Shown in pieces: positions 17,523 to 19,723 of a DNA stretch of 21,138 nucleotides. A program made the translations under genes and the position numbers. The DNA comes from a virus, in the IMG/VR virus record IMGVR_UViG_3300005935_000181, positions 1 through 21,138 of that record; one strand, 5' to 3'. How positions within the stretch are numbered: position 1 is the stretch's first letter; every line of letters begins with the position of its first letter. Below the pieces are notes generated by a model, which saw nothing but the letters and a program-made list of their open reading frames with translations, was not told where the DNA came from and made no database searches.

Positions 17523-17888
17523 TTAATCTGTAACGGTTACATTAACCTCAAATGGCTTGCCATCAGCGTTTCCCAAATCAATCGGCTGTTTCGGCATACC
17601 CTCAACATACTGCAATATGTTTTTAATCTGTGCTTGATCTCCTGTATCCACTGCCTGACAAAAAATGGTTTCTATTAATTTCTCGGCATAAGTTTTTCGA
17701 CTCTTCAAGTTGCCCTTGTTCTTCTCTGGATATTCCTCTTGAAGTTTCAACTTCATCATGTGAACAAGAGAAACTGTTCCAACAGGGCGACCAGAAGGAT
17801 TTGGAACTGTGCCTTTTAAAAATCTACCCTTATCATCCCTTTTACTCCCAGTTTTATTTGGGGCTATCTTTTCGTCTTTTTTAGCCAT
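17523..17888 (-). CDS. terS: Terminase small subunit-like protein, 121 aa
   Basis: Residues 21-37 (GRFLKGTVPNPSGRPVG) match the 'GrFkkGtsGNPkGRPkG' motif of DUF5681-type proteins that regularly precede terL and serve as DNA-recognition or small terminase subunits. A helical segment (SLVHMMKLKLQEEYPE) follows, then a hydrophobic helix (KLIETIFCQAVDTGDQAQIK) that could form the oligomer core, and a short C-terminal tail. It is the first gene leftward of the divergent control region, so its promoter or the packaging site should lie in 17889-18100. The start has no Shine-Dalgarno. Role as small terminase is inferred from motif and position. Confidence 0.75.
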   Translation of the reverse strand: MAKKDEKIAPNKTGSKRDDKGRFLKGTVPNPSGRPVGTVSLVHMMKLKLQEEYPEKNKGNLKSRKTYAEKLIETIFCQAVDTGDQAQIKNILQYVEGMPKQPIDLGNADGKPFEVNVTVTD

Positions 17889-17937
17889 GTTTATGGTACT
17901 AATACAAACAACTTACCACAAAATGTGAGCCGTTGCA

Positions 17938-17956
17938 AACAGGACGAAAGTCCGTT
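17938..17956. other. Small hairpin near terS start
   Basis: GGAC (17942-17945) and GTCC (17950-17953) close a GAAA tetraloop on the plus strand, extended by AAC/GTT with one bulged A. It lies about 50 bases upstream of terS, on the side of the leftward leader. It could be a leader hairpin or part of a packaging site; no function can be shown. Confidence 0.4.
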
Positions 17957-17975
17957 AAGAAAATGTCCCATGCTT

Positions 17976-18040
17976 ACTATTCCTAACCATTCCTAACTAT
18001 TCGCAATAGTGCCGAATAGTTGCGAATAGTTGGAATAGTT
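17976..18040. repeat. Phased array of AATAGT-type operator repeats
   Basis: Three copies in one orientation (ACTATTCC at 17976, ACCATTCC at 17986, ACTATTCG at 17996) are exactly 10 bp apart. Four copies of AATAGT in the opposite orientation start at 18005, 18015, 18025 and 18034 (10, 10 and 9 bp). Within it AACTATTCGCAA (17995-18006) and TTGCGAATAGTT (18020-18031) form a perfect 12-bp inverted repeat with a 13-base spacer. The helical spacing implies cooperative protein binding on one DNA face. It lies between divergent terS and replication genes, so a regulator or packaging-protein site is likely. Confidence 0.75.
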
Positions 18041-18067
18041 AAATTCTCATAAAAACCAGTAAGTAAG

Positions 18068-18104
18068 ATTTACTCTTGACATTATAAAAACGGAAGAGTA
18101 AATT
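18068..18104 (+). promoter_or_regulatory. Early promoter with overlapping 10-bp dyad operator
   Basis: TTGACA (18076-18081), a 17-base spacer and TAAATT (18099-18104) form a sigma70-type promoter reading right toward the replication gene. A perfect inverted repeat, ATTTACTCTT (18068-18077) and AAGAGTAAAT (18094-18103), overlaps both the -35 and the -10, with half-site centres 26 bp apart. A protein binding this dyad would block RNA polymerase. Expected start is near 18111. Confidence 0.75.
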
Positions 18105-18141
18105 AAATACAGAACTTAATATTAATGGGAGAGAATCATCA

Positions 18142-18207
18142 ATGAATTTAGAGTGTAGATTGTTAGATAGGAACGCAACAAAGTCTCTCCCAAAGTTTCT
18201 TCGTTAA
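18142..18207 (+). CDS. Leader peptide ORF upstream of repO, 21 aa
   Basis: An ATG at 18142 opens a 21-codon frame (MNLECRLLDRNATKSLPKFL plus R) ending in TAA at 18205-18207. It has GGGAGAGA at 18127-18134, eight bases upstream. The replication gene has the same element at nearly the same distance (GGGAGAGC at 18247-18254, start 18263), so the two initiation sites are near copies. The frame covers the left arm and loop of the long hairpin described separately and stops 2 bases before its right arm. A regulatory leader peptide is therefore more likely than a stable protein. The peptide itself has no recognisable motif. Confidence 0.55.
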   Translation: MNLECRLLDRNATKSLPKFLR

Positions 18208-18235
18208 GCTTCCTATCTAACAATCTACATTTTAA
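18148..18235 (+). promoter_or_regulatory. Long leader hairpin with anti-SD loop upstream of repO
   Basis: The arms GTAGATTGTTAGATAGGAA (18155-18173) and TTCCTATCTAACAATCTAC (18210-18228) are perfectly complementary. Counting flanking pairs (two G-U) the stem reaches 26 pairs, 18148-18173 with 18210-18235, around a 36-base loop. The loop carries TCTCTCCC (18184-18191), complementary to GGGAGAGA at the leader ORF (18127-18134) and, over seven bases, to the ribosome binding site of repO (GGGAGAG, 18247-18253). A second copy of AATCTAC (18234-18240) could pair with the left arm in an alternative register. The loop is large and only four T follow, so an RNA switch is more likely than a terminator. 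Confidence 0.7.
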
Positions 18236-18262
18236 TCTACTTAATCGGGAGAGCAAACTGCA

Positions 18263-18973
18263 ATGACCACTGCTAAATTCACTAAAATAGAAAATGATGT
18301 TTTAGAAGTCTTGATGAGTTGCAAATTATCTGCCGCTGAGCTACAAGTCGCATTAGCTATTTTGCGTAAAACCAACGGATGGAGCAAATCTTCAGATGAA
18401 ATAAGCTATAGTCAACTAATCGCACTAACAGGCAGGTCTAGACAAACAATCAGTAATTGTTTGAAGCAACTTCAACTAGTCAACATAATTAGACTAGTTA
18501 AGAAAGGAACAAGCAAGAAACAAAGTAACGAATGGCTTTTCAACAAGAACGTATCCTCTTGGGAACTAGTCAACAGAATTAGACTAGTCAAGTTTCCTGA
18601 GTCAACTAGTCTAGTTTTTGATACGGAACTAGTCAAGTTAAGTAGACACACAAAAGACACTACAAAAGAAAGATTACAAAAGAAAGAGCAAAAGAGATCA
18701 TTCTTAGAAAAAATAAATAAAGCATTTGAAGAGTTCTGGAAATTATATCCCAAGAAGAAAGGGAAGAGTAAAGCCAAGGAATCTTTTATTAGAATTTTCT
18801 CTGGATTGAAATCTGAATCTGAAGCTGACGTATTATTCAAGAGAATCCTTTCAAGTGTAAGTGACAGCGAAATAACTGAACAATGGCAGGAAGTGCAATT
18901 TATACCATTCCCAACCACTTGGTTAAACCAGCGGAGATGGGAAGACGAGATAGATCCGGATGAATTTATTTAA
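18263..18973 (+). CDS. Phage replication initiator, lambda O-like, 236 aa
   Basis: The N-terminal region (FTKIENDVLEVLMSCKLSAA at residues 6-25, then ELQVALAILRKTNGW and the helix-turn-helix-like SQLIALTGRSRQTISNCLKQ) matches the Phage_rep_O winged-helix family that binds origin repeats. A central variable region (70-130) is encoded by the iteron repeats. The C-terminus (FEEFWKLYPKKKGKSKAKES, then FIPFPTTWLNQRRWEDE) is the usual end of such initiators and probably contacts a helicase or its loader. It is the first protein-size gene of the rightward early unit, with a GGGAGAG ribosome binding site and a regulated leader. It should melt the origin lying inside its own gene. Confidence 0.82.
   Translation: MTTAKFTKIENDVLEVLMSCKLSAAELQVALAILRKTNGWSKSSDEISYSQLIALTGRSRQTISNCLKQLQLVNIIRLVKKGTSKKQSNEWLFNKNVSSWELVNRIRLVKFPESTSLVFDTELVKLSRHTKDTTKERLQKKEQKRSFLEKINKAFEEFWKLYPKKKGKSKAKESFIRIFSGLKSESEADVLFKRILSSVSDSEITEQWQEVQFIPFPTTWLNQRRWEDEIDPDEFI
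18474..18637 (+). repeat. Iterons inside the replication gene (putative origin)
   Basis: Six ACTAGT elements start at 18475, 18493, 18565, 18583, 18605 and 18628. They are organised as two 29-bp direct repeats (18474-18502 and 18564-18592, 27 of 29 identical, exactly 90 bp apart), an imperfect palindrome AACTAGTCTAGTT (18604-18616) and a further AACTAGTCAAG (18627-18637). In the protein the repeats give LVNIIRLVK and LVNRIRLVK. As in lambda, where iterons lie within gene O, this is the probable initiator binding site. Confidence 0.75.
18648..18716 (+). other. Purine/AT-rich tract next to iterons (possible unwinding element)
   Basis: Right after the iterons the plus strand is almost all A and G with little C or T. 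CAAAAGA occurs at 18651, 18663, 18677 and 18689 (spacings 12, 14, 12), followed by AAAAAATAAATAAAG. In lambda an AT-rich, strand-asymmetric tract beside the iterons is where the helix opens, and this tract has the same place and composition. It also encodes the lysine-rich linker of the protein (residues about 130-152), so codon demand is an alternative explanation. Confidence 0.5.
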
Positions 18974-19471: not shown

Positions 19472-19500
19472 TTGACATTGGATAAAACATAGTGTATTCT
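19472..19500 (+). promoter_or_regulatory. Second early promoter, TTGACA-N17-TATTCT
   Basis: TTGACA (19472-19477), a 17-base spacer and TATTCT (19495-19500), continuing TTGA, form the same element as the leftward tail promoter at 7689-7717. Start would be near 19507. A short inverted repeat ACACT (19468-19472) / AGTGT (19491-19495) flanks the -35 and -10 edges. It lies 72 bases after the stop of the 137-aa gene and would drive the small early genes. Confidence 0.7.
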
Positions 19501-19502
19501 TT

Positions 19503-19527
19503 GAATAATTAATTAAAGACCACGCCA
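19503..19527 (+). repeat. Leader repeat copy 1 before 55-aa gene
   Basis: GAATAATTAATTAAAGACC continues with ACGCCA, 25 bases. The second copy (19695-19720) differs by a single inserted T. This copy begins about where transcription from the 19472 promoter would start and ends 5 bases before the ATG of the 55-aa gene. Confidence 0.7.
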
Positions 19528-19532
19528 AACAA

Positions 19533-19700
19533 ATGAGAACAAACAAACTTTTAACTTACAAGCAAGCCATCCGAAAAGTGTTTAGTGCTTTTTCTCAAGA
19601 TGGATTTGATGGTGATGTTGCCGTAGTAGAATTTTTACGAGAAATGGGATCAAGATCACAATATGCCAAAAGCGATGTACTAGAATTTATAGAAGAATAA
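19533..19700 (+). CDS. Small early protein, 55 aa
   Basis: The frame starts MRTNKLLTYKQAIRKVFSAF, continues with SQDGFDGDVAVVEFLREMGS and ends SDVLEFIEE. It is a soluble, predominantly helical, mixed-charge peptide with no recognised domain. The start is 5 bases after the end of the duplicated leader (19503-19527), and its TAA lies inside the second leader copy. That organisation, the absence of a competing frame and the promoter upstream make it likely to be real. No Shine-Dalgarno is present. Confidence 0.55.
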   Translation: MRTNKLLTYKQAIRKVFSAFSQDGFDGDVAVVEFLREMGSRSQYAKSDVLEFIEE

Positions 19701-19720
19701 TTAATTTAAAGACCACGCCA
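19695..19720 (+). repeat. Leader repeat copy 2 before 51-aa gene
   Basis: GAATAATTAATTTAAAGACC followed by ACGCCA, 26 bases, matches the copy at 19503-19527 except for one added T. It starts within the last codons of the 55-aa gene and ends three bases before the ATG of the 51-aa gene, so it is placed the same way as the first copy. Confidence 0.7.
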
Positions 19721-19723
19721 GTT

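Follow-up and report, generated by a model that had tools for sequence, protein, structure and literature searches.

A candidate translational-control leader with an anti-Shine-Dalgarno hairpin loop upstream of the O-type replication gene of an uncultured phage

Results

The stretch of DNA analyzed here (hereafter, the window) is the 21,138-base IMG/VR virus record IMGVR_UViG_3300005935_000181, which belongs to an uncultured phage; its structural genes run leftward on the minus strand, and its replication operon runs rightward, starting from repO. The repO gene (18263-18973, + strand) encodes a 236-aa protein whose match to the Pfam family Phage_rep_O (PF04492; E = 3.9e-15, 56.6 bits against a cut-off of 28.7) makes it a lambda-O-type replication protein, as an earlier note on this DNA had supposed. 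Repeat analysis placed iteron-like repeats (AACTAGTCAAC...TTAGACTAGT, putative iterons) within repO, at 18474-18655, likewise to the lambda ori, which lies within O. The phage itself appears to be an orphan: a scan of IMG/VR with its major head protein returned only its own near-identical contig. Its TerL is nearest (~40%) to those of phages of Pelagibacter and other marine hosts (HMO-2011 kind) and of gut contigs.

Upstream of repO, a sigma-70-like promoter is predicted on the + strand (TTGACA-17-TAAATT; -35 at 18076-18081, -10 at 18099-18104); it is the sole promoter-like site in 17850-18400, although chance alone would also give such matches. A perfect 10-bp palindrome found by repeat analysis (ATTTACTCTT/AAGAGTAAAT; 18068-18077 and 18094-18103, + strand) overlaps this promoter, and no shuffle of the window reproduced it as a paired site; the palindrome is likely a repressor operator. 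From the location of the promoter-like site, transcription would start near 18111, so that the transcript would take in the whole leader. Between the two divergent operons, positions 17985-18041 contain what looks like an operator cluster, made up of repeats both inverted and direct (AACTATTCGCAA/TTGCGAATAGTT, and copies of GAATAGTT). A second site of the promoter type (TTGACA-17-TATTCT) is found at 19472-19500, and near-identical copies of TAATTAATT(T)AAAGACCACGCCA at 19510-19532 and 19702-19723, just 5' of the small ORFs at 19533 and 19724, stand out in a phage that is otherwise mostly devoid of Shine-Dalgarno (SD) sequences. The core of this repeated intergenic motif is present in 7 other contigs, none of which has the same context; as a probe for relatives, the motif gave matches without context, and only one matching contig (L087) was distantly homologous (TerL).

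Ahead of repO lies a putative leader ORF of 21 codons (MNLECRLLDRNATKSLPKFLR, then stop; 18142-18207, + strand), whose translation is predicted and which has its own SD, GGGAGAG, 8 nt 5' of the ATG. The same heptamer forms the SD of repO (18247-18253, + strand), and on the + strand of the window it occurs only at these two starts, which agrees with the earlier remark that the translation starts of the leader ORF and repO are near-identical. Among 20 gene starts checked, ~4, including that of repO, pair noticeably with the 16S anti-SD, and the leader start pairs equally; since most other genes of the phage show weak or no SD-like pairing, identical SDs at the leader and repO are unusual here. 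The leader ORF ends with TAA at 18205-18207, 2 nt short of the right arm of the hairpin described below and 55 nt from the repO ATG (18263). A TTG-initiated 44-codon frame on the minus strand (18122-18256) runs across the whole hairpin and repeats the CRLLDR of the leader peptide, because both hairpin arms are read in the same frame; this minus-strand frame is probably a by-product of the inverted repeat.

Inverted-repeat search revealed that the longest inverted repeat of the window spans much of the leader as a stem of 26 pairs (left arm 18148-18173, right arm 18210-18235, + strand), 24 of them Watson-Crick and 2 G-U, with a perfect core of 20 bp (18154-18173 and 18210-18229). The runner-up perfect repeat of the window has 12 bp, and the longest perfect stem in 100 window shuffles had 14 bp, hence the 26-pair hairpin of the earlier note stands. 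The structure prediction that it had proposed for 18105-18300, performed by nested folding without pseudoknots, yielded -46.1 kcal/mol (z = -3.8), which 0 of 200 dinucleotide shuffles equalled. The 36-nt loop (18174-18209, + strand) contains at 18184-18192 an anti-SD, TCTCTCCCA (UCUCUCCCA), which over 9 nt complements the leader SD region (TGGGAGAGA, 18126-18134, + strand); 7 of these 9 nt also complement the repO SD. Complementarity of the loop to both SDs was thus correctly noticed, and at the leader it extends one base beyond the earlier description. Complementarity of at least 9 nt to the leader ribosome-binding site (RBS) arose in 0.3% of shuffled loops, and of at least 7 nt to both RBSs in 0.45% (0.36% and 0.48%, respectively, of all window 36-mers), a chance level of 0.3-0.5% that holds for one feature freely picked by a reader among many noticeable ones. 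The repO SD lies outside the hairpin, and nested folding gives it only weak pairing, with no strong structure. Inverted duplication as the origin of the anti-SD was ruled out, as the anti-SD lies on the wrong side of the right arm; an intrinsic terminator was also ruled out, as the stem is followed on its 3' flank only by TTTTAATC and nothing terminator-like. An Rfam search of the leader (E <= 5) returned no credible bacterial family and no C4 match; its best matches were eukaryotic microRNA models, far under the cut-off, which were disregarded since any long hairpin is expected to give them.

Calculated duplex energies revealed that the preferred partner of the loop is the SD of the leader itself (-15.0 kcal/mol) and not that of repO (-11.5 kcal/mol). 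In folding of the growing transcript, the leader SD is captured by the loop at 18192 (-15.3 kcal/mol), and by 18220, with the right arm about half complete, the hairpin wins. If a ribosome occupies the left arm (18155-18185), the loop is predicted to pair with the repO SD with a mean probability of 0.78, hence loop capture of the repO SD is thermodynamically plausible. With a ribosome placed at the leader stop, the predicted accessibility of the repO SD was unchanged (0.34), and no pairing between the loop and this SD was predicted. These computed pairings are plausible, their numbers being those of nested folding without pseudoknots, which do not say that the pairings occur. Moreover, the linker strand between SD and hairpin, 11-13 nt long, barely spans the 26-bp stem unless the base of the stem frays, and given that the anti-SD favours the leader SD, repO could stay largely free.

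Relatives were sought by scanning IMG/VR with RepO, TerL, the product of the ORF after repO and MCP, by scanning GTDB genomes with RepO, and by searching phage and plasmid collections with the leader DNA. In these collections, the only relative with the leader was one near-identical contig, IMGVR_UViG_3300025736_000509, which differs from the window by 2 SNPs in 13,600 positions (13.6 kb), none of them in the leader; hence, covariation of the arms and the loop, which had been suggested as a check, has no variation to draw on. The pattern GGGAGAG-N-CTCTCCC-N-GGGAGAG was found in 36 contigs, and the hairpin in none of them except this phage.

We then surveyed the leaders of 88 replication genes, O-like or tail-related, which came from IMG/VR and from named phages. 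For each, the 240 nt 5' of the gene were scored for interleaved stems (a-b-a'-b'), and 1040 starts of other genes in loci of the same kinds served as controls; loci fetched by the GGGAGAG pattern, which had contaminated a strand-wide hairpin scan, were left out of the final statistics. At a threshold of at least 21, chosen after seeing the data, 4/88 replication-gene leaders but 0/1040 other starts scored (3/87 vs. 0/1040 when this phage was excluded, p = 0.00045), and for mostly non-coding upstream regions (at least 0.7) the counts were 4/46 and 0/222 (p = 0.0045 without this phage). Since the thresholds were set after the data had been seen, this recurrence is a supported lead and not proof.

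The interleaved layout, in which a leader start is followed by a hairpin with a complementary loop, occurs also in the leaders L126 and L097 and, in a weaker form, in L007; the observed scores of the window, L126, L097 and L007 were matched in 0, 0, 0 and 1 of 1000 dinucleotide shuffles, respectively. The energies of the a:a' pairing and of the hairpin are -17.3 and -31.3 kcal/mol in L126, -19.9 and -26.7 kcal/mol in L097, and -15.0 and -35.4 kcal/mol in the window. In L126, a TTGACA-17-TATATT site lies 5' of the leader, whose ORF starts at 1853; next comes CGACGATCTC, which complements the loop of a ~25-pair hairpin, and this hairpin ends 29 nt before the replication-gene ATG (28 nt in the window). 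In L097, GGCGAGAACCA directly 3' of the leader start complements the loop of a hairpin of ~25 pairs, and an additional small ORF joins the leader to the replication gene; the hairpin of L007 has ~10 pairs, and in both L097 and L007 a T-rich tail comes after the second stem. Thus, as in the window, the start of a short ORF just 5' of the replication gene is complementary to a hairpin loop, but in these three leaders the loop is complementary to the opening codons of the leader and to neither the leader SD nor the replication-gene SD, whereas in the window it is the SDs that are targeted. Furthermore, the small ORFs of L126 and L097 reach or enter the start region of the replication gene, unlike in the window with its 55-nt gap.

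The four leaders have no detectable mutual sequence similarity, and their loci share only the replication-protein tail. The exact SD version of the layout was found in none of the other 87 surveyed leaders, in line with the earlier view that such a circuit is unusual for an O-like initiator. An Rfam search of six of the leaders (L110, L126, L097, L092, L123 and L129) gave no match. In named phages, the replication proteins of L126 and L097 have distant relatives only, and in those annotated the gene mostly lies close behind other genes. L110 has, at ~950-1130, a stem of 26 pairs around 126 nt of intervening sequence, upstream of a replication-like gene; this stem has no match in Rfam and may represent a structured RNA not yet described. 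L007 has at ~2310-2425 a leader with MKRTPLASIKRI and interleaved stems, whose peptide start and layout are like those of the MARTNSKTIRKL leader of L097; the two could be a shared element.

Discussion

Given the anatomy of the locus, with its stem, its loop complementarity and a layout that recurs elsewhere, we postulate, at a probability of roughly 0.4, that the region is a translational-control 5' leader of the repO mRNA, in which the loop would mask the leader start and could also mask that of repO. Synthesis of the right arm would allow the hairpin to expose its anti-SD loop, which would pair by preference with the leader SD and, as a second choice, with the repO SD if the leader SD is occupied; initiation would then be low at both the leader and repO, so that RepO would be made sparingly. 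A ribosome loading on the leader before the loop and the right arm exist would run through the left arm and the loop and halt at 18205-18207; in this position it would occlude the anti-SD along with the first part of the right arm, and the repO SD would stay free. Leader translation would in this way favour RepO synthesis, in the manner of Tap for RepA, and transcription would be under separate control via the palindrome over the promoter. The direction of control, leader translation, the pseudoknot and the transcription start are inferred, whereas the sequence anatomy, the stem, its loop complementarity and the recurring layout are observed. The same layout ahead of replication genes in unrelated phages suggests selection. 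The switch interpretation of the earlier note thus gains from the anatomy, the promoter-like site and the layout in two or three unrelated phages, and loses from the preference of the loop for the leader SD. The main weakness of the translational-control reading is that the repO SD is only the second choice of the loop and is not otherwise buried.

The hairpin could instead be excised as an antisense RNA of the P4 CI or P1 c4 kind, its loop acting on the flanking sites both in trans and in cis for immunity or replication control, which we regard as unlikely. A stem of 24-26 bp would be a plausible RNase III substrate, and complementarity of the loop to sites on both sides, 5' of a replication gene, resembles the P4 layout (PMC4825925). 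However, the P4 CI RNA is described as a product of an untranslated transcript (PMC4825925), whereas here the left arm and the loop lie inside an SD-bearing ORF, and neither C4 nor any other credible bacterial family was matched in Rfam. Less likely is a leader attenuator, in which the hairpin would serve as a pause, weak terminator or RNase III site set by leader translation, and the SD match would be incidental; the leader ORF does stop just 5' of the right arm, and the T-rich tails of L097 and L007 would fit, but after the stem of the window there is only TTTTAATC in place of a terminator-like site, and both the 9-nt and 7-nt loop complementarity and the limitation of GGGAGAG to two starts would be left unexplained. 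That a perfect 20-bp inverted repeat adjoins the replication gene might also point to a DNA-level element, namely a protein-binding site, part of an origin or the remnant of a small transposable element. This is improbable, as the record has only one copy of the repeat, the repO iterons are situated elsewhere, a 36-nt spacer within an ORF would be unusual for a site bound by a dimer, the arm is found in no other IMG/VR contig (the near-identical one aside) with no similar phage or plasmid DNA, and the SD complementarity again goes unexplained. Very improbable, finally, is a real hairpin with an anti-SD match by chance and normal expression of repO: CTCTCCC, the 7-mer complementary to the SD, does occur three times on the + strand of the window, and the 0.3-0.5% figure applies to one of many features that a reader could pick out, but complementarity of the loop to the leader start recurs in L126, L097 and L007.

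Phage O-type initiators are usually thought to be controlled by transcription and protein turnover, while the copy number of plasmids is controlled through leader peptides and RNA loops before Rep genes. If the translational-control reading is true, phages, too, limit initiator synthesis via ribosome traffic on the mRNA, and the layout provides a sequence-independent search rule for more such leaders; its presence in two or three unrelated phages hints at a little-noticed throttle on phage DNA replication. We speculate, rather doubtfully, that an undescribed class of pseudoknot-prone leaders recurs on phage initiator genes of various kinds; each would consist of a short ORF with a translation start that complements the apical loop of a long hairpin placed immediately before the initiator gene. 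Such leaders would be a counterpart of plasmid leader-peptide copy control that evolved several times, and to this scheme the window would add the initiator SD as a second target.

In plasmid systems of the tap-repA and repY-repZ type, the initiator RBS is held in a stem that is opened by leader translation, the leader stop lies near or overlaps the initiator start, an antisense RNA is made across the leader, and a leader loop is able to form a pseudoknot with a sequence beside the initiator RBS. The window has in common with IncFII R1 tap-repA and IncI-alpha ColIb-P9 repY-repZ a promoter that is probably regulated, a short leader ORF, a structured leader and the initiator next; by its complementarity, a leader loop might also pair just upstream of the initiator start. 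In R1, repA is translationally coupled to tap, and the promoter is repressed by CopB (PMC5717011). The parallel with these plasmids drawn in the earlier note thus holds for an SD-bearing leader ORF before the initiator, and it is incomplete because the repO SD is not in the hairpin, no stem sequestering the initiator RBS, and because the leader stop is 55 nt from the repO start, without tight spacing. In contrast to the plasmids, the best partner of the loop is the SD of the leader itself, the controlled gene is a phage O-type initiator, and the 7-nt match hits the repO SD itself, so that a pseudoknot would block and not activate. An antisense RNA gene is not evident in the window; minus-strand promoter matches inside repO are weak (9/12) and at background level.

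Among phages, the c4 RNA of P1, which is related to P4 CI, has a hairpin in a replication leader whose loop complements sites on either side. The P4 CI RNA base-pairs with an upstream site, seqA, and a downstream one, seqC, thereby shutting off the replication genes, and it is processed from its transcript (PMC4825925). It works by transcription termination. Common to both and to the window is a loop complementary to both sides (9 nt upstream and 7 nt downstream in the window) in the leader of a replication gene, but unlike in P4, the hairpin of the window overlaps a putative SD-bearing ORF, its targets are SDs, and it has no Rfam match. In a leader of the prophage Gifsy-1, RNA pairing (IsrK/orf45-anrP) governs a small upstream ORF, and translation of the next gene is coupled to that of this ORF (PMC4825925); the window would share RNA pairing at a small upstream ORF in a phage leader, whereas activation by a separate small RNA and the absence of a replication initiator are not shared. 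Hence, we assign the leader of the window to neither the plasmid nor the P4 systems, as it lacks defining features of both, although it would work like tap-repA and repY-repZ and has a geometry like that of the P4 CI RNA.
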